The position numbers and the translations under genes are program-made. Positions 4,382 through 22,134 of a DNA stretch of 25,914 nt are shown here, in pieces. The DNA lies in IMG/VR virus record IMGVR_UViG_3300021961_000563, positions 1 to 25,914 of that record; one strand, written 5' to 3'. Below the pieces are notes generated by a model that saw nothing but the letters and a program-made list of their open reading frames with translations, made no database searches and was not told where the DNA came from. Position 1 is the stretch's first letter; the number at the start of each line of letters is the position of its first letter. Origin of the DNA: a virus.

Positions 4382-6823
4382 TTATGTTATCAAAGTAAAT
4401 GTTCCAAAATCTGACACTCGACTATGGTCTCTCATAGTAAAGTGCTGTTTTCTTATTCCTTTGGTAATAAAAGATATGTGAATCCAAACAGTAGTCGGTC
4501 CAGAATATTCTAACAATAATTGATCGTAAGGAACTAACTGTTGTATTTCTTGAATTGCTTCGTAGTGTTCTGTCCTACTAAATCCTCCTAAAACAATATC
4601 AGCTGCCTGTCCTTTATAATGTTGAGAAACTTTAGAGGAAGCTGAAACGTCTCCAGGTTTTCTAAATGCATTGGTAATAATCATATTTGGCCAACGTTCT
4701 TTTATAGGATCTAATACGTTTACGCATAAATTTCTAAGGTTACAAACAATATCTTGTGGAGTAAGTCCAAATTGATTACATGGTTTTCTAGTCCAATTTG
4801 AAGTTACTTGCCCAAGATTAAAATATTTTGACAGAACTAAAGAAGAACTAAACTTGCTAGTATCCATATTTCGGATAAAATCACAATCTGTTTCCTCTGG
4901 TACTAGATTATTTTCTATTGGACCAGTTGAAGAAACTATTTCTCCAGAATTTAATTCATCAGAAGCTATATTTCCACGCTCGAGCTGTCTTGCTATGAAG
5001 CTAGATGGATCTCCTTCTTCTGGAGTTTCATATGTTTGCGATGTAGAAAGTGAACGATTAACTGTTGTCAACTTACTAAAAGTTTTTTCAGTTATTTCTT
5101 TAACAGCTTGAGGAGCTGACAATCCACTAGAAGCAGCACCAGTACCAAAATCTCCACGAACATAATCTACTGCAAAATTTCCTCCTGCTTTAATGTCAAT
5201 ATTTCCAGTAGTTTCCATTTTAATAGAAGCAGCTCTTAATGCATATTCTCCACCAACTGACATCTTAGCGTTACCACTAACATTAACTGTAGCATTGTTG
5301 TAAATGTTTATAGTAGTTGCACCATCAACTTCTAAATCTAACGCATTTTTAACTTTAACCTTTTGTGAACCTTCAATCGTAACATACTGAGATCCTATAA
5401 TATGGACGTATCCATTACGTTCTAATATCTCATAGCCATCACCTACTATACGATTTACTCTAGTTCCATTTGCATCTATTTCACTAAAAGTTCCTGATTT
5501 GTGATGTAAATTTATTCTTTCTGAATTTGGAGTATCATCAAACTCAAATATATGGCCAGATTCGCTACAATAAACATGGTTAAATGGATACTGAGCATTA
5601 TATGGATTTGGAGATTGATCCCAAGTTTCTGTAGAATTTGCTATCTCAACAGATTTATCTCTAGAAGCATCTTTTTTAAATACAATTGTATTGGTGATGT
5701 CTTCGTTTCTAGCTAATTTGTGCGTATCAGGCTCATTTGTATATAATGGATATTTACCTGTAGGATCTCTAAATCCATATTGCGAGGAAGAACCTTGATT
5801 TGATAATCCAGTTGATCTTTCAATGGTATTGCCTTTGGAATCAGTATAAGATTGTCCAACAGGAACTTGCTCTTGTGCTACTGGTGTTAATCCACCAGCT
5901 ATATTTGGTATTCCATCACTTAAAAACAGAGCTCGTTCAGCATTCCTTCTAGTTACTAATCCTTTTAAAACTTTTCCTCCAGCCTTTACCCAATCATTAA
6001 ATCTTGCTGCAGCATTTTCATAATTGCCTGCATTTAATTCTGATAAGAGAGTTGAGTTTTTAAGATTACCGTTACCAAGATTATAAGCAAAACAGCAAAG
6101 CGCATCTACCATAGATTGTGATACAAGAGCTTTTACATCTCTTTTTACTCCTGGCAAAAACTGTTTTTTTAAATCTTCTAAAAGATATTTTTCAGCTTCT
6201 TCTTTTGTAATTCTTCTGTTTGCTTGAACAGCAACACCATTTATGCGTGTAGTTCCATAACCTACTGTCCAAACTCCAACTGAATCTTGATATGCTTCTA
6301 ATTCTAATCCTTCGAATTGTTTTATTAGAGCTATACCCTTAGAACTAACTTCTGAAAAGTCTCTAACTGGTCTTAAACCAGAATAATCTGGTGTGGTAGA
6401 TTGTTCTTGTGGTTCTCCAACATCGCCTGATGATAAAATAGTTCCGCTTGCATCGGTTGTAACTTGAGTTCCGTTTTTAGCAACTCCATAATCGTCTTTC
6501 AACAATAAGCTAAGATCATCTTCATCAATCGATCCAAACTCTTGTGGAATTCCACCCACTGTTCCGAGAATAACAGGTTGTTGGTTATCTGGATAATCTC
6601 TAAAATAAATTACTACCCATGTTCCTTCAACTGGTCCAGTTGGACTAAATCCTATTCCACTAATCGCAGCAGAATTTAATGGTTGCATTGGATGTGCCCA
6701 TGGCAAATCTTCTGTTGGTAAGTCTGCTTTTAAGTGCGTGTGAACACCAACAACTCTAACTTGACATCTGCCAAGTTTAAGTGGATCCATTCTGTTTTCA
6801 ACACAACCTGTATATAATTGCAT
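4382..6823 (-). CDS. 5: Baseplate hub / cell-puncturing protein gp5 with lysozyme and M15-type peptidase domains
   Basis: 813 residues, longer than T4 gp5 (575). Domains in order: an N-terminal OB-fold (about 1-95); a T4-type lysozyme (about 155-301), where E171, D180 and T186 keep exactly the spacing of the T4 lysozyme catalytic E11, D20 and T26; a linker; a beta-helix needle (about 415-555) with short alternating repeats such as YVTIEGSQKVKVKNALDLEV; a low-complexity linker; and a C-terminal domain (about 690-790) like zinc peptidases of the M15 type, with SQHYKGQAADI giving H735 and D742, and WIHISF giving H782. The needle pierces the outer membrane and the enzymes open peptidoglycan during entry. 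The extra peptidase domain is absent from T4 gp5. It follows the gp27-like hub gene, its expected partner. Confidence 0.92.
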   Translation of the reverse strand: MQLYTGCVENRMDPLKLGRCQVRVVGVHTHLKADLPTEDLPWAHPMQPLNSAAISGIGFSPTGPVEGTWVVIYFRDYPDNQQPVILGTVGGIPQEFGSIDEDDLSLLLKDDYGVAKNGTQVTTDASGTILSSGDVGEPQEQSTTPDYSGLRPVRDFSEVSSKGIALIKQFEGLELEAYQDSVGVWTVGYGTTRINGVAVQANRRITKEEAEKYLLEDLKKQFLPGVKRDVKALVSQSMVDALCCFAYNLGNGNLKNSTLLSELNAGNYENAAARFNDWVKAGGKVLKGLVTRRNAERALFLSDGIPNIAGGLTPVAQEQVPVGQSYTDSKGNTIERSTGLSNQGSSSQYGFRDPTGKYPLYTNEPDTHKLARNEDITNTIVFKKDASRDKSVEIANSTETWDQSPNPYNAQYPFNHVYCSESGHIFEFDDTPNSERINLHHKSGTFSEIDANGTRVNRIVGDGYEILERNGYVHIIGSQYVTIEGSQKVKVKNALDLEVDGATTINIYNNATVNVSGNAKMSVGGEYALRAASIKMETTGNIDIKAGGNFAVDYVRGDFGTGAASSGLSAPQAVKEITEKTFSKLTTVNRSLSTSQTYETPEEGDPSSFIARQLERGNIASDELNSGEIVSSTGPIENNLVPEETDCDFIRNMDTSKFSSSLVLSKYFNLGQVTSNWTRKPCNQFGLTPQDIVCNLRNLCVNVLDPIKERWPNMIITNAFRKPGDVSASSKVSQHYKGQAADIVLGGFSRTEHYEAIQEIQQLVPYDQLLLEYSGPTTVWIHISFITKGIRKQHFTMRDHSRVSDFGTFTLIT

Positions 6824-11574: not shown

Positions 11575-11997
11575 ATGAAAATGAATGATAAATTATCTGA
11601 AGTGTTTGATGTTGAAATAATTCCTGAAGAAAAATCGCTGGTTCCTGAGATAGTTGAAGAACCTGAGATATCCAGTGGGAATCAAAAGATAGAAACAGAT
11701 TATGATGCATCTAGAAAAAATTTACAAATACTTCTGGTACAAGGTGAAGATGCATTAACAAATGCTCTAGAAGTTGCTAAACAAAGCGAGCATCCAAGAG
11801 CATTTGAAGTAGTGGGAAATTTAATTAAGCAATTGGCAGATGTAAATCAACAACTAATGGATTTACATAAACAAAAGCAAAACTTAGATAACCCAAAGGG
11901 ATCAAAAACTGAAAAAAACGTGACCAACAATTCAATTTTTGTTGGAAGCACCGCTGAGTTGAATAAGTTAATTTCGACTATGAATAAAGGAGAATAG
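11575..11997 (+). CDS. 16: Small terminase subunit gp16
   Basis: 140 residues, against 164 in T4. The central block runs from about residue 44: DYDASRKNLQILLVQGEDAL, then ALEVAKQSEHPRAFEVVGNL, then a coiled-coil helix VNQQLMDLHKQKQNL. This DASR...SEHPRAFEV pattern identifies the gp16 small terminase of T4-like phages, which forms rings and regulates DNA packaging by gp17. The acidic N-terminus (many Glu) and flexible C-terminus are also usual. The large terminase gp17 is not in this window. It is placed inside a tail gene group. ATG at 11581 is an alternative start only two codons in. Confidence 0.88.
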   Translation: MKMNDKLSEVFDVEIIPEEKSLVPEIVEEPEISSGNQKIETDYDASRKNLQILLVQGEDALTNALEVAKQSEHPRAFEVVGNLIKQLADVNQQLMDLHKQKQNLDNPKGSKTEKNVTNNSIFVGSTAELNKLISTMNKGE

Positions 11998-11999
11998 TA

Positions 12000-12713
12000 A
12001 TGGCATTACCGATTCAAAGTGCACCAAAATATAGCGTAACAATTCCTTCAACTGAAGAAACTGTAAATTTTAGACCATTTATAGTTAAAGAACAAAAGTC
12101 TTTGTTATTGGCTCAGCAGAGCGAAAAGCAAGGAGTTATGATAGACACATTAAAAGATGTAATTTCAGCGTGTACTTTCAATAAAATTGATGTTTCCAAC
12201 TTAGCATTATTTGACTTAGAATATCTTTTCACACAAATAAGAGCTAAGTCTGTTGGAGAAACTGTAGAACTAGTTATAAAATGCAATACGTGTACTGATG
12301 AAAAGGCTAGAGCAAAAGTATCTTACGACTTAACAAATATAGAAGTTAAAAAAGACGAAAACCACAATAAAAAAATACCTTTGTTTGACGATGTTGGAGT
12401 TATGATGAAATATCCAAACTTTGACATGATAAGAGGATTTGAAAATATACAAGATGGAGATGTCGAAGAATTATTTGGAATGGTTTCTAAGTGTATAGAT
12501 TACATATACAATACAGAAGAAGTATTTCACACAAAAGACCTAAGCAAAGAAGAAGTTGATGAGTTTTTAAACAACTTAACGCAAGATCAATTTAGTAAAA
12601 TACAGAACTTTTTTGAAACTTTGCCAAAAATATACACTGATCTAGATTACATTTGTCCAGTGTGTGAAGTTAAGCAGCAAACAAGAGTTGAGGGTATAAA
12701 CAGTTTTTTTTAA
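12000..12713 (+). CDS. 26: gp26-like baseplate hub / tail assembly chaperone (zero-frame product)
   Basis: 237 residues, against 208 in T4 gp26. It has FRPFIVKEQKSLLLAQQSEK near the N-terminus, as in gp26 of marine T4-like phages, and two Cys pairs: C95/C98 (KCNTC) and C219/C222 (ICPVCE), likely one zinc ribbon. GGAGAATAGTA gives the Shine-Dalgarno. The gene ends in a run of eight T (12704-12711) immediately followed by the stop TAA; the -1 frame stays open for 60 more codons, down to the tape-measure gene. Position just before the tape measure and this slippery end look like the G/GT or E/E+E' tail assembly chaperones of other phages. Confidence 0.85.
   Translation: MALPIQSAPKYSVTIPSTEETVNFRPFIVKEQKSLLLAQQSEKQGVMIDTLKDVISACTFNKIDVSNLALFDLEYLFTQIRAKSVGETVELVIKCNTCTDEKARAKVSYDLTNIEVKKDENHNKKIPLFDDVGVMMKYPNFDMIRGFENIQDGDVEELFGMVSKCIDYIYNTEEVFHTKDLSKEEVDEFLNNLTQDQFSKIQNFFETLPKIYTDLDYICPVCEVKQQTRVEGINSFF
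12704..12711 (+). promoter_or_regulatory. Candidate programmed -1 frameshift site (run of eight T)
   Basis: In the gp26 frame the codons are AGT TTT TTT TAA. Slippage by -1 on T-TTT-TTT re-pairs both tRNAs perfectly and continues as TTA ATT AAC CTT, joining gp26 to the 60-codon downstream frame. The zero-frame stop follows directly. Polymerase slippage on the T run could give a similar outcome. Confidence 0.6.
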
Positions 12714-12892
12714 TTAACCTTTGTCATGAAGATTTGATTGGTTATTACAAAGTAAATTTTGGATTAATGCAACACCACAAATATACTTTGACCGAACTTG
12801 AGGAAATGATTCCATTTGAAAGAGAAATATATGTTTCTATGTTATTGCAGCATTTAGAGGAAGAAAAACGAAAATTAGAAGGACAAAAATAA
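12710..12892 (+). CDS. Frameshifted extension of gp26: GpE'/T-like tail chaperone domain
   Basis: This frame is open from 12692 and is read in full only by a -1 shift at 12704-12711, giving a fusion of about 297 residues. The 60-residue extension runs LINLCHEDLIGYYKVNFGLM, then QHHKYTLTELEEMIPFEREI, then a helical, charged tail. The T-L-T-E-L-E-E-M-I-P-F-E-R-E pattern resembles the short T/E'-type tail chaperone parts (hydrophobic-S/T-E-L...M...E-W/F-R-E). A stand-alone product could start at ATG 12767 (41 residues), but no good Shine-Dalgarno precedes it and the residues before it look conserved, as far as I recall from relatives. T4 has gene 51 in this place. The ORF ends 3 nt before the tape-measure ATG. 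Confidence 0.65.
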   Translation, partial: LINLCHEDLIGYYKVNFGLMQHHKYTLTELEEMIPFEREIYVSMLLQHLEEEKRKLEGQK

Positions 12893-12895
12893 TAA

Positions 12896-15250
12896 ATGGA
12901 TAATTCATTTACACTCCTATTAGATGAGCAAAAAATAACCAATTCTTCTATGGAGAAGGTTAGAGAATTGCTCATCTCAGTAGATTCTAAATCCGCAATA
13001 ACAAATAATATTCTAAACTCAATTGCTGACTTGATGCGAACTGCATTCTCTTTAGACGGCAGAAAGAGTGGTGGTGATGCACAAAATCCTGTACTTGGTC
13101 AGGCAAAAGAGGATCAGTTTGAAAACATAAAACGCCAAGATAGAATGATAACGTTGTTAGAAGAAATCAGGGATAAACTATCAGGAAAGCCTGTTGTAAA
13201 AGAAGAAGATACTAAAACTGACTTTGCAGAAAGTTCAGGTATTGGAAAACTATTTTTAGCTCTTGGAGTTGCAGTAGGTGCAGTAATTGGACTAATTGGA
13301 GCTCAACTAAAAACAATAAAATTCTTTTTAGGTGGAGCTTTTTCAAAACTACTGGTACTAGCAAAAAAAGAATTAGATATCATAAGATTCATATTTTCTG
13401 AAAAATTTGCGCAAATAGGAAAAGTAGCAGGAAGATATCTAACTGGAATAAGAAATTTATTTTCTGAAAAACTTATGGCTATAAGAGTTGGAATACGAAT
13501 GATTTTTGATTCATTCGTTTCTAAACTCAAGGTGTTGTCCAATAACAAATACATAGGTCCAATCTTAACAAGACTGACCACAGCAATAAGATCAATCTTC
13601 CAACCAATTATCAATTTTACTAAAGCATTAAAAACTGAAGGTACCATAGCAAGGGTTATGACAGGTATTGGTAATGGCATAACAAAAATGCGAACCTTTT
13701 TTACCAGTATTGGAAGTAAATTTTCCAAAGTTCTTGGATTTTTCAAAAAAACAGAAGATGGCGTTTCAGCATTTTCAAAAATATTTCCTAAAATATCAGG
13801 ATTTTTTGGAAGTATTGGAAAAGCCTTTAGTGGATTCGGGAAGGCATTTGGGTTAGTAGCAAATTTCGTAAAACGGATTGCATATCCAATACTGATAATA
13901 ATGACAATATGGGATACAGTAAAAGGTACAATAGCAGGATTTGAAAAGGGTGGCATAATTGGAGCAATTGGAGGAGCAATTAAGGGATTCTTCAACTCAC
14001 TGATAACAGCCCCACTTGATATGTTAAAGGGTGCTGTATCTTGGATATTAAATTTGTTTGGGATGAAAAACGCCAGTAAATGGCTGGACTCATTTAGTTT
14101 TACAGATATCTTTAATGGCTTCGTCGACAGCATAACTGGTATGTTAAGCTCGGTTGTAGATTATTTTACTTCTGCGTGGCAAGAAGGTGGATTGCTTGGA
14201 GTAATTGGAGCAGCATTAAAAGGAATCATAAAAACATTAGTTATGATGCCAGCAGATATTTTAAAGAGTGGAGTTTCTTGGATACTAGAAAAATTTGGAT
14301 TTGAAAACGCCAGTAAATGGTTAGACTCTTTTAGTTTCAGTGATTTGTTCGATAAGATGATTACTGGCATATCCGATATGCTAGGCTCTATACCAGAATA
14401 TCTTGGTAAAGCATGGGACTGGGTTAAAGAAACCATATCTGGAGTGTTTACTGGGATGTGGGGACTATTCAAAGAGTGGATTATTGATCCAATATGGGGA
14501 GGACTAGAGTATATTGGAGATCTAATAAAAGAATATATTTACGAACCATTTAAGGAAGTATTTGATCCAGTAATAGAATGGTTTAAAAAGATAAAAGATA
14601 AGGTATTGGGTTTCTTTGAAAACTTTGGTATACCAGAAATAGGATTTAGTGTTTTCGGTAAAAAGTTTACTGTTGGACCATGGTATCCATTTAAGTCAGA
14701 TCAACCAGAAAGCAATGCTGATGAGAGTAGTAGTGGTGTAGACAGAATTAGTGGAGAAGGGTTTAAGGCAGAAAGATCTGCTTCTGGTGAGGGAGTTATT
14801 CAATATCAAGATCCAACCACTGGTGAAATAATAACAAGAATGGTATCTGATGATGTTTATGATAAAGTAAAGAAAAATGTAGAAAGTGGTATTGATGGTA
14901 GTTCCATGGTTGCTGATGTTATAGCTGAAGAAAAGGCATACGATCAGTTAAGTTGGTTTGATAAAATGAAAGTTAATTTTACTGATTCTAAAGCAACTGA
15001 TTTGTTACAAGAAAAAAACTATGGATCTTCGCAAACTGGGAATACTTTACAGGCTATATCTACTGATAATGATATGAAAAAATTAGAGATGAATATACCT
15101 AAAACTACAGCAAATGTAGTTACAGATGCAAGAACTTTAAATACTGTTAATAAAAATCAAAATGTTACAGTTAGACAAAATACTAGAGATAACAGTTCTT
15201 CTTTACGAAGGTATAATGAAAGAAGCACTGATTTCGCTTATCCAGGATAA
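12896..15250 (+). CDS. Tail tape measure protein (gp29-like by position)
   Basis: 784 residues, against 590 in T4 gp29. The N-terminal 110 residues are helical and hydrophilic, followed by a hydrophobic segment (about 118-137, FLALGVAVGAVIGLIGAQL), a long Lys/Phe/Ile-rich helical middle with several more hydrophobic stretches, and a hydrophilic Ser/Thr/Asn-rich C-terminus. Residues 350-428 and 429-507 are a tandem duplication: NASKWLDSFSF occurs at 392 and again at 471, each preceded by GG-hydrophobic-G-I/V-G and SWIL motifs. Large size, helical composition with membrane-like segments, and the place directly after a frameshifting chaperone pair point to the ruler that sets tail length. No Shine-Dalgarno stands out (AGAAGGA lies 14 nt upstream). 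Confidence 0.8.
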   Translation: MDNSFTLLLDEQKITNSSMEKVRELLISVDSKSAITNNILNSIADLMRTAFSLDGRKSGGDAQNPVLGQAKEDQFENIKRQDRMITLLEEIRDKLSGKPVVKEEDTKTDFAESSGIGKLFLALGVAVGAVIGLIGAQLKTIKFFLGGAFSKLLVLAKKELDIIRFIFSEKFAQIGKVAGRYLTGIRNLFSEKLMAIRVGIRMIFDSFVSKLKVLSNNKYIGPILTRLTTAIRSIFQPIINFTKALKTEGTIARVMTGIGNGITKMRTFFTSIGSKFSKVLGFFKKTEDGVSAFSKIFPKISGFFGSIGKAFSGFGKAFGLVANFVKRIAYPILIIMTIWDTVKGTIAGFEKGGIIGAIGGAIKGFFNSLITAPLDMLKGAVSWILNLFGMKNASKWLDSFSFTDIFNGFVDSITGMLSSVVDYFTSAWQEGGLLGVIGAALKGIIKTLVMMPADILKSGVSWILEKFGFENASKWLDSFSFSDLFDKMITGISDMLGSIPEYLGKAWDWVKETISGVFTGMWGLFKEWIIDPIWGGLEYIGDLIKEYIYEPFKEVFDPVIEWFKKIKDKVLGFFENFGIPEIGFSVFGKKFTVGPWYPFKSDQPESNADESSSGVDRISGEGFKAERSASGEGVIQYQDPTTGEIITRMVSDDVYDKVKKNVESGIDGSSMVADVIAEEKAYDQLSWFDKMKVNFTDSKATDLLQEKNYGSSQTGNTLQAISTDNDMKKLEMNIPKTTANVVTDARTLNTVNKNQNVTVRQNTRDNSSSLRRYNERSTDFAYPG
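13943..14416 (+). repeat. In-frame tandem duplication of 79 codons inside the tape measure gene
   Basis: Copy 1 is about 13943-14179 and copy 2 about 14180-14416, an offset of 237 nt. The best-kept stretch is AACGCCAGTAAATGG at 14069 and 14306, encoding NASKW followed by LDSFSF. Outer parts have diverged but keep glycine and hydrophobic positions. Confidence 0.75.
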
Positions 15251-17002: not shown

Positions 17003-17218
17003 TTAGACGTCAAGTTTTCCTTGTTTAGGAAGATAATTTAATTCTCTGAATTCTAACTCCAACTTATCTTTTAAATTAGAATTGATAAAGTTAGTTACAT
17101 CAGATGGTTCAAGATAGTTTTCCTTACAGTATTCTAATATAGCATCCATGTAAGGAACTTTTTTATCTCTAACAATCTGTTCAATGTAGAGCGAGAACTC
17201 ATTTGCATTGTTGAACAT
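17003..17218 (-). CDS. 33: Late transcription co-activator gp33
   Basis: 71 residues, shorter than T4 gp33 (112). The core SLYIEQIVRDKKVPYMDAIL EYCKENYLEPSDVTNFINSN LKDKLELEF (residues 9-57) has the helical pattern with the YMDAIL motif seen in gp33 of marine T4-like phages. gp33 links RNA polymerase to the gp45 sliding clamp and, with sigma factor gp55, activates late promoters of the TATAAATA kind that occur in this window. The start overlaps the peroxiredoxin stop by 1 nt (TAATG) and is followed by gp59. Confidence 0.82.
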   Translation of the reverse strand: MFNNANEFSLYIEQIVRDKKVPYMDAILEYCKENYLEPSDVTNFINSNLKDKLELEFRELNYLPKQGKLDV

Positions 17219-17751
17219 TATAATCCACTTATTCTTGAGATTTGATTGAAAATGTTTTCAGGAGAAGTTTCACCGTAAGGATCCAAACCACAGTTATCTT
17301 CTCTGTCTGGTTCAACAAACCATTTAACAATTTCTTTATTGTCTACAAGAACAGCGTAACGCCAAGACCTCATACCAAATCCCAAGTTATCCTTACAAAC
17401 TAACATACCCATAAGTCTAGTAAACTCACCAGAACCATCTGGAATTACCTTTACGTTTTGTAAGTTTTGAGATTTCGCCCAAGCATTCATAACAAACGAA
17501 TCGTTGACTGACATGCAGTATATGTCGTCTATTCCTTGTCCTCTAAATGCCTCATACATCTTTTCAAAATTAGGTAATTGAAAAGTTGAGCAAGTTGGAG
17601 TAAAAGCTCCTGGAAGCGAAAACAAAATAACTTTTTTATTGGTAAAGTAATCATCGGTGGTCATATCCTGCCAACGATAAGGATTATCTCCGCCAATACT
17701 TTCATCACGAACTCTTGTTTTAAAAGTTACGTTTGGAACACGATTAAGCAT
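17218..17751 (-). CDS. Peroxiredoxin (Prx5/PrxII type)
   Basis: 177 residues from ATG 17751. A TTG 12 nt upstream also opens the frame, but GGGAG lies between it and the ATG at Shine-Dalgarno distance, so ATG is chosen. The active-site motif LPGAFTPTCST gives P47, T51 and peroxidatic C54 in the P-x3-T-x2-C pattern; RSWRY (about 128-132) carries the conserved arginine. Other cysteines at 79, 119 and 154 could act as resolving residue. The length and G-A-F-T-P-T-C form fit the Prx5/PrxII group that reduces hydrogen and organic peroxides with thioredoxin or glutaredoxin. It is a metabolic gene placed directly before gp33 with a 1-nt overlap, so it is expressed with the replication and late-transcription genes. 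It could protect the cell from oxidative damage during infection. Confidence 0.93.
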   Translation of the reverse strand: MLNRVPNVTFKTRVRDESIGGDNPYRWQDMTTDDYFTNKKVILFSLPGAFTPTCSTFQLPNFEKMYEAFRGQGIDDIYCMSVNDSFVMNAWAKSQNLQNVKVIPDGSGEFTRLMGMLVCKDNLGFGMRSWRYAVLVDNKEIVKWFVEPDREDNCGLDPYGETSPENIFNQISRISGL

Positions 17752-17763
17752 TATATCTCCCAA

Positions 17764-18704: not shown

Positions 18705-19265
18705 TTATGTGAGATCTTTAACATAGTCGCAGATACCCAGCTTTTTAGCTTCCAAAGCGGAAAGCCACGTGTCCTGTGGAGGCAATAATACCTCTCTAAT
18801 CTTCTTATCTGGCAATCCAGTGCACTTTCTGTAATGGTTTATCATTCTTTTGGTTGTTAAATCATATTCTTTAATCTGAGCAAATAACTCGTGTTCTTTA
18901 CCAAAGGCTCCCCAGCTATATTGATGAGAAAGAATACTGGTGTTGGGAGTTAGTATTCTCATTTTCTTATCACCTGCAATAAAAATTAAAAGTCCAGCAG
19001 AAGCAATTTGTCCTATACCAAAAGTTCTAATTGGTATTGCTGATCCTCTCATCACATCTATCACTGCAAACGCAGCATTCAAATCTCCTCCAGGAGAGCA
19101 AATAATAAGGTTTAATAATTCTGGTCTTTCTTCTGAAAAATTTGATTCAAATATCCAATCTATTGTTGATTTAGCAGAAGTATAATTAATTTCGTCCATC
19201 AGCAAGTAGAACGAATGAGCCATCTTTTGCCCTTCGGTTACTTGAAAGTTTAGTTTTTGTGCCAT
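18705..19265 (-). CDS. clpP: ClpP-like serine protease
   Basis: 186 residues from ATG 19265, chosen because AAGGATAAAAATA precedes it; an upstream in-frame start at 19298 has no ribosome site. Catalytic triad: S89 in GIGQIASAGLL, H114 in SILSHQYS, and D165 in PPQDTWLSALEA, with the Ser-His spacing of 25 equal to that of E. coli ClpP (S97, H122). CSPGG (56-60) and G-D-L near it form the oxyanion region. ClpP forms double heptamer rings that degrade proteins fed by Clp ATPases. The phage has no ATPase here, so it would need the host ClpX/ClpA/ClpC or act in assembly, perhaps for protein turnover. The first 80 nt overlap the end of the wall hydrolase gene in another frame. Confidence 0.92.
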   Translation of the reverse strand: MAQKLNFQVTEGQKMAHSFYLLMDEINYTSAKSTIDWIFESNFSEERPELLNLIICSPGGDLNAAFAVIDVMRGSAIPIRTFGIGQIASAGLLIFIAGDKKMRILTPNTSILSHQYSWGAFGKEHELFAQIKEYDLTTKRMINHYRKCTGLPDKKIREVLLPPQDTWLSALEAKKLGICDYVKDLT

Positions 19266-19839
19266 TATTTTTATCCTTATAAAATATGTGTTGCCCAATC
19301 TTCACTGTTTTAACTTTCATTTTTCTCCAACTGGGTGCAACGTAATCAGCATGGTACCAAAGTGCTCCACCAGTTATATCATAATTCAATTCTGAATTTA
19401 GAGCAATTTGTTTTGCCATCTTATAAATCGATTCATAAGCTTTCCTGTCATAAACTACATCTGGCTTACCATCACACCACCAAGAAAACTGACACTTGTG
19501 TTTAATCGGTACTATCTTGCCTGTGTTTTCTGTATGCCACTTAGAGACAATTCCTTGTTTTACTACACCGCAAATACTGTCAGGAAATCTAGGACTCTTA
19601 ACTCTATTTAAGGTCACCAGAGCAACAGCTTTTTGTCCGATGTATGGTTCACCAACAGCTTCAAAATACATATTATCAGCCAGACATTGTATTTCTTTTT
19701 TAACTCTGGGTAAGATTAAACTTGATTGAAATTCTTTTACCTCGATTTGAGGCGATGAAATATTCTTAGGATATGCTGTATAAGCAATAAGAAATACAGC
19801 AGTAAGCAAAGTAAATGAAAGAAATATTTCGTTCTTCAT
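19186..19839 (-). CDS. Cell wall hydrolase, SleB family, with N-terminal membrane anchor (probable endolysin)
   Basis: 217 residues. Residues 5-23 (IFLSFTLLTAVFLIAYTAY) form a hydrophobic segment after a single Lys, either a signal sequence or a signal anchor. The catalytic domain (about 50-195) is of the SleB/CwlJ type: CLADNMYFEAVGEP with the likely catalytic E60, VALVTLNRVKSPRFPDSIC, CQFSWWCDGKPD, and GALWYHADYVAPSW. This fold cleaves peptidoglycan glycan strands. With the anchor it could be a signal-arrest-release type endolysin, exported without a holin; no holin is seen nearby. A perfect Shine-Dalgarno (TAAGGAGGT) precedes the ATG and contains the stop codon of the upstream gene. The C-terminal 80 nt overlap clpP. 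Confidence 0.9.
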   Translation of the reverse strand: MKNEIFLSFTLLTAVFLIAYTAYPKNISSPQIEVKEFQSSLILPRVKKEIQCLADNMYFEAVGEPYIGQKAVALVTLNRVKSPRFPDSICGVVKQGIVSKWHTENTGKIVPIKHKCQFSWWCDGKPDVVYDRKAYESIYKMAKQIALNSELNYDITGGALWYHADYVAPSWRKMKVKTVKIGQHIFYKDKNNGTKTKLSSNRRAKDGSFVLLADGRN

Positions 19840-21822: not shown

Positions 21823-22134
21823 TCAAACTGCAAAGCTTTTACCACAACCACATGTGGCTGTAGCGTTTGGGTTCCTAATTACAAATTGGCTACTCATGAC
21901 ACTATCTTCCCAGTCAATAATAGCTCCCTGTAAATACTGCATGCTCATTGAATCTACAATAATTCCGCCAACCTCAAAATCGTCTTCATCTTTATTTTCT
22001 TCAAAGGTGAATCCGTAATTAAAACCAGAACATCCACCACCAGTGACAAATGCTCTAACTTTAAAATCTGGATTGCCCTCTTCTTGTAAGAGAGCATTAA
22101 TCTTTTCCATTGCCTTTTCTGTAACTGTAATCAT
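21823..22134 (-). CDS. A-type iron-sulfur carrier protein (IscA/ErpA-like)
   Basis: 103 residues, the usual length. The conserved Cys are present: C35 in GGGCSGF and C95 and C97 in TCGCG, the pattern C-x42-60-C-x-C that holds an Fe-S cluster in IscA/ErpA/SufA. The remaining sequence ([35 protein letters not shown]) is typical. Such carriers pass clusters to target proteins; a phage copy could support host Fe-S or ribonucleotide enzymes during infection. The start overlaps the stop of the upstream gene (TAATG), with GGAAG as a ribosome site. Which member of the A-type group it is cannot be told here. Confidence 0.92.

Follow-up and report, generated by a model that had tools for sequence, protein, structure and literature searches.

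How is the stretch read that lies between the gp26 homologue of a T4-like virus and its tape measure gene, where the upstream gene ends within a run of eight T residues and the -1 frame stays open almost up to the next start codon? Does it hold a small gene with a start of its own, or is it the end of a longer version of gp26 that only some ribosomes would reach? The locus belongs to a metagenomic virus record (IMG/VR record IMGVR_UViG_3300021961_000563), of which positions 1 to 25,914, the whole stretch of DNA analyzed here, are called the window. As argued below from comparison of sequences, the locus very probably encodes a single tail assembly chaperone that would be made in two lengths by -1 programmed ribosomal frameshifting, with a short form (TAC-N) and a long form (TAC-NC) carrying an additional C-terminal domain (TAC-C). 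The features on which the argument turns are the following:

12000..12713, plus strand: gp26 homologue, the putative short chaperone form TAC-N; 237 amino acids, stop codon within the coordinates
12690..12694, plus strand: GAGGG, a Shine-Dalgarno-like candidate stimulator; 10 nt from the end of GAGG to the heptamer
12704..12710, plus strand: candidate slippery heptamer T_TTT_TTT (U_UUU_UUU) in the gp26 frame, within the T8 run 12704-12711
12711..12713, plus strand: zero-frame stop codon TAA directly 3' of the heptamer, read from the sequence
12710..12892, plus strand: -1 extension, the predicted TAC-C domain of the long form; 60 amino acids plus stop, identified by its match to phrog_634
12896..15250, plus strand: tape measure protein gene, 784 amino acids, identified by PHROG matches; its product is the expected client of the chaperone

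The 3' end of gp26 reads GAG GGT ATA AAC AGT TTT TTT TAA, with the T run spanning exactly 12704-12711. In the -1 frame, a TGA at 12689-12691 is followed by an open stretch from 12692 to the TAA at 12890-12892, and the tape-measure ORF (phrog_1535, E 8e-14; phrog_58, tail length tape measure protein, E 1e-12) begins at 12896, i.e. 3 nt past the end of that frame, with the gp26 locus immediately upstream. A slip at T_TTT_TTT would place the ribosome on -1 codons from 12710 onwards and lengthen the 237-residue gp26 by 60 residues, yielding a predicted fusion of 297 residues whose peptide across the slip site is NSFFLINLCHED. The first possible starts after the slip in the same frame are TTG 12734 and then ATG 12767, the latter giving a 41-residue product. 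All of the coordinates in the initial annotation, which had proposed a fusion of about 297 residues ending 3 nt short of the tape-measure gene and had named the 41-residue product as its competitor, proved correct to the base when the sequence was re-read. The run itself stands out: TTTTTTTT occurs once on both strands of the 25.9-kb window against 11.4 occurrences expected from dinucleotide shuffles, meaning that T8/A8 runs are strongly avoided in the window except at the slip site. An intrinsic terminator making use of the T run was also considered and rejected, as a scan of positions 12500-13000 found no terminator-like site.

In the surroundings, a small-terminase gp16 homologue (PF11053, phrog_445; 11575-11997) separates gp26 from the tail tube gene, and a large gp5-like baseplate hub protein of 813 amino acids (4382-6823) combines an OB domain with a domain of phage lysozyme. 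Three host-like genes lie on the minus strand, encoding a peroxiredoxin (Redoxin, E 2e-26; 17218-17763), a ClpP-like protease (E 2e-27; 18705-19298) and an iron-sulphur cluster biosynthesis protein (E 2e-14; 21823-22134).

What kinds of protein do the two frames specify? The zero-frame product is a member of the T4 gp26 family by whole-domain profile matches above cut-off, both to PF12322 T4_baseplate (E 4e-63, 213.5 bits with a cut-off of 24.5) and to phrog_150, positions 5-232 of which are matched by residues 1-237 (E 9e-69). The N-terminal ~85 residues of its AlphaFold2 model (pLDDT 86) align with the PDB chains 3fgx (Z 7.7), 2ob9 (Z 7.5 over 84 residues) and 3klu (Z 7.1), all of these best scores staying below 8; next comes 5ir0 (Z 5.3), an uncharacterized protein encoded by a phage-inducible element, and the first chain that is clearly unrelated scores Z 4.4. 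Of these, 2ob9 is the HK97 tail assembly chaperone gp13, and 3klu is YqbN, which we take to be a prophage tail chaperone of the XkdN type. With Foldseek alone, 2ob9 received the top probability (0.69), albeit with an E value of about 1, and a sequence search of solved structures with the gp26 and the extension alignments retrieved no relatives. The predicted fold is thus suggestive, though not proof, of an N-terminal domain built like those of tail assembly chaperones with known structures, among them HK97 gp13. The -1 peptide matches positions 55-115 of the 121 in phrog_634 (E 2.7e-25), a family labeled 'baseplate hub assembly catalyst' that corresponds to the small gene which cyanophage annotations name gp51. 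A second match of this peptide, to the C terminus of phrog_150 (positions 227-279 of 282, E 7.5e-7), begins exactly where the match of the zero-frame product stops, which implies that phrog_150 already has members that unite both halves in one protein. The extension is predicted by AlphaFold2 to be all-helical (mean pLDDT 82.5), in keeping with the helical segment first noticed in its sequence; a fold search with this model returned low-Z rows alone (Z at most 2.4 among seven chains), and the TAC-C fold therefore argues neither for nor against the chaperone assignment.

If the T run is a slip site, its register should matter, and here the relatives are informative. With the window and four annotated phages added to the viral contigs, 234 gp26 loci were available, in 232 of which the second domain was found as well; some contigs were repeated between scans, leaving 181 distinct regions. 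Representatives less than 80% identical (n=107) and a smaller diverse set (n=53) were used for the finer comparisons, and the detail on stops and starts comes from the first 150 loci. A megablast of the window against the phage collection found no near-identical published phage. In every one of the 232 loci, the second domain lies at -1 relative to gp26, and in every one of them an X_XXY_YYZ heptamer stands in register, as TTTTTTC in 126, TTTTTTT in 105 and TTTTTTA in a single locus. This constancy refutes in practice the suspicion that the frame break is a homopolymer sequencing or assembly error, or the mark of a decayed gene. Homopolymers are indeed error-prone in some sequencing methods, and the window comes from a metagenome-derived record; yet the identical break at the identical codon recurs across all 232 loci, including isolate genomes from many laboratories, which reduces the probability of such an artefact to almost nothing.

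The codons point in the same direction. The first slip Phe is TTT in all 107 representatives (the background is 72% TTT; p 9e-16, a value that, like the other codon-bias p-value given below, ignores the kinship of the sequences and is indicative only), whereas none of the other conserved Phe columns of the gp26 alignment is TTT throughout. All 107 representatives have T at the third position of the preceding codon, and of the 34 with Ser there, 28 use AGT (19% AGT among Ser codons of the same genes), resulting in AGTTTTTT; it is possible that this codon (12702-12704 in the window) influences slippage. Such a freeze of codon choice at the exact slip register would be hard to explain otherwise than by slippage on these codons. 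Of 150 loci, 146 have the zero-frame stop 0-2 codons past the heptamer and the other four have it after 8 codons, and between the slip and the second domain no stop codon occurs in any of the 150.

Could it be the RNA polymerase that slips, generating a fusion mRNA from the T8 run, rather than the ribosome? Eight T, as found in the window, would in principle be enough. However, the conserved element is the codon register and not the length of the run, 126 of 232 relatives having six T followed by C and one having TTTTTTA, and this favors ribosomal over transcriptional slippage. The upstream Shine-Dalgarno-like element described below would moreover be left without a role. Transcriptional slippage is accordingly judged very improbable, and the expectation that the slip run would recur across T4-like relatives held true, with the qualification that its length varies.

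Another reading is that the -1 ORF is a separate gp51-like gene that initiates independently, at TTG 12734 or ATG 12767, by reinitiation after gp26, the T run being incidental. It is so annotated in many public records, e.g. those of Bellamy, HTVC008M and phiM7, and in some distant relatives TAATG or TGATG overlaps supply this frame with an ATG. What would such a gene look like? Its conserved residues should follow its start, but in the extension alignment near-invariant residues appear from position 6 counted from the first slip Phe, and the near-invariant positions 6, 8, 18 and 19 sit upstream of ATG 12767, bearing out the suspicion that residues ahead of this codon are conserved. The two starts of the window, TTG 12734 and ATG 12767, both fall within or past conserved residues. 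Diversity at the three codon positions of the -1 frame after the slip is 0.32, 0.29 and 0.58, which indicates coding constraint in that frame just past the slip. In 18 of the 53 diverse representatives, furthermore, the first 14 -1 codons after the slip contain no ATG, GTG or TTG, and there is no such codon upstream either; the slip codons are synonymously frozen, and the cyanophage records S-CAM4 and ACG-2014i have no annotated second gene. On these comparisons, initiation of the second domain in its own right is unlikely, and a separate gene as the general explanation of the locus is highly doubtful. Some relatives may nevertheless use reinitiation as well, considering the early -1 ATGs and the stop/ATG overlaps in Caulobacter phage Cr30 and others.

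Frameshifting by the ribosome thus seems the better account, and one may ask whether anything around the heptamer would stimulate it. At codon -5 before the slip, 73 of 107 representatives have Glu, and 46 of these 73 use GAG, against a GAG share of 25% in the rest of these genes (p 6e-12, again indicative only); the next-highest conserved Glu column of the gp26 alignment shows 41% GAG. Together with the near-invariant Gly that follows, this GAG creates GAGG or GGAGG, at 10-11 nt from the heptamer in 45 of 46 matches. Counted directly, GGAG or GAGG lies upstream of the slip in 48 of 107 representatives, as against a mean of 2.6% and a maximum of 15.9% at other offsets used as controls. Shine-Dalgarno stimulators of -1 frameshifting work at a distance of 9-14 nt upstream (PMC5009743), and the window, with GAGG at a spacing of 10 nt, falls inside this range and so contains the feature typical of dnaX. 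From the codon bias, the conserved GAGGG/GAGG is therefore a candidate stimulator of slippage. A downstream stem-loop or pseudoknot was considered too and is not claimed: 95-nt windows fold slightly more strongly than controls (mean z -1.45 versus -0.04 to -1.27), a weak excess overlapped by the control spread, and RNAalifold on 20 close relatives found no consensus pairs.

Taken together, the conservation of frame and heptamer, the loci without a usable start, the codon bias, the GAGG and the predicted N-terminal fold of gp26 make -1 frameshifting very likely. The frameshift-chaperone layout put forward by the initial annotation thus finds support in the 232 of 232 loci with their in-register heptamer, in the conserved residues that precede the starts, and in the matches of the gp26 model. 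Most ribosomes would terminate at the TAA at 12711, releasing the 237-residue TAC-N, while a minority would move one base back on U_UUU_UUU (12704-12710), pass the adjacent stop and append the 60-residue helical TAC-C to yield the 297-residue TAC-NC. By analogy with lambda gpG/gpGT, many copies of TAC-N and a few of TAC-NC would coat the neighboring tape-measure protein, and the TAC-C tail would recruit tube subunits. What is observed directly is the anatomy of the sequence, the conserved frame and slip site and the chaperone-like predicted fold of the N-terminal domain; we infer the slippage itself, its rate, the stimulation by GAGGG and the chaperone function.

How does this compare with known systems? 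In lambda, the slip site is G_GGA_AAG, whereas in the window it is of the form U_UUU_UUY with the stop immediately 3'. In P2, the E/E+E' pair is likewise produced by -1 frameshifting, at a T-rich slip site 5' of the tape measure gene, as was reportedly described by Christie and co-workers in 2002; the layout is like that of the window, although P2 belongs to a different phage group. The lambda layout is equally alike, gpG being a short chaperone and gpGT a minor long form that arises from a -1 shift close to the 3' end of a gene directly preceding that of the tape measure (PMC5009743). The TAC locus of Vandenendeviridae and Andersonviridae (phage Adele), where a -1 programmed frameshift is associated with a conserved GTTTTT motif and the second ORF is usually annotated separately (PMC12846349), resembles the window in layout too, in other virus families. 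As for the signals, among the classes of slippery tetramer in Escherichia coli U_UU.Y ranks second (PMC4066793), and E. coli dnaX has a Shine-Dalgarno-like element ~10 nt upstream of its slippery heptamer (PMC5009743), but also a strong downstream stem-loop, of which there is no clear counterpart in the window.

Is the arrangement general among T4-like phages? The heptamer is present at the equivalent place in distant groups as well, in Schizotequatrovirus, Emdodecavirus, Busanvirus, Menderavirus and Ishigurovirus, as well as in Caulobacter phage Cr30, Stenotrophomonas phage DLP6, Pseudomonas phage Milchi and Nitratidesulfovibrio phage SRB7757. No X_XXY_YYZ heptamer is found at the end of gp26 in the Ackermannviridae VAP7, YC and phiA8-29 or in Vibrio phage D533. 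In all four the -1 frame is open and a tetramer of the U_UUY type remains; TAATG overlaps in VAP7, YC and D533 would place an ATG in that frame, which suggests another route to the long form or to the C-terminal part.

In T4 and Serratia phage CHI14, the slip position reads TTC TTT and the heptamer is absent, the end of T4 gp26 being GAG TTC TTT GAG. T4 gp51, on the other hand, comprises a gp26-like N-terminal part (hhalign E 4e-6) and a C-terminal TAC-C domain (E 3e-5), and it matches phrog_150 in full length (13-280 of 282, E 3e-84), whereas T4 gp26 matches only the short part of phrog_150 (E 3.8e-17 to the gp26 alignment). Because T4 gp51 spans the profile of gp26 plus extension, the fusion has a counterpart in a real family of proteins, and because gp51 carries both parts and gp26 the short one, T4 has the two forms as two genes. 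Its long form is a separate, oppositely oriented in-frame gene, unlike in the window, where TAC-C is present solely in the -1 frame after gp26. The proposal that T4 gp26 and gp51 are themselves a frameshift pair hence stands in part: the profile matches fit a short and a long chaperone, but these come from separate genes with no frameshift.

The chaperone identity and the frameshift in other T4-like phages are already published: according to papers that cite the work, TAC-N and TAC-NC of T4-like phages were identified in 2022 (Vladimirov, Gautam and Davidson 2022, Virology 566:9-15, pmid 34826709), and the window locus has both the gene family and the idea in common with that work. It has been cited for polyT slippery sequences in the TAC-N genes of T4-like phages (PMC12846349) and for some T4-like phages having a short gene plus a long fusion gene in place of frameshifting (PMC10885494); a 2016 review had still listed T4 as the exception to G/GT frameshifting (PMC5009743). 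The part that may be new here is the dnaX-like internal Shine-Dalgarno element.

It is conceivable, with arguments about evenly balanced, that in Kyanoviridae-type phages the TAC-N:TAC-NC ratio is set by a dnaX-like frameshift, with a Shine-Dalgarno element 10 nt 5' of U_UUU_UUY and a stop usually no more than two codons further on, that T4-type phages dropped this device for a second gene, and that some Ackermannviridae perhaps moved to stop-restart coupling. The family would then offer a natural experiment on how a chaperone ratio is kept in evolution, by frameshift, by separate genes or by coupled restart, and the Shine-Dalgarno-like element would be a testable and possibly undescribed control point. 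The small cyanophage genes called 'gp51' or 'baseplate hub assembly catalyst' would be the C-terminal portion of a chaperone made by frameshifting, in many cases lacking their own start codon, and such annotations should become a joined coding sequence. Marine T4-like phages would thereby be tied to the rule of tail-length assembly that holds for lambda and P2.
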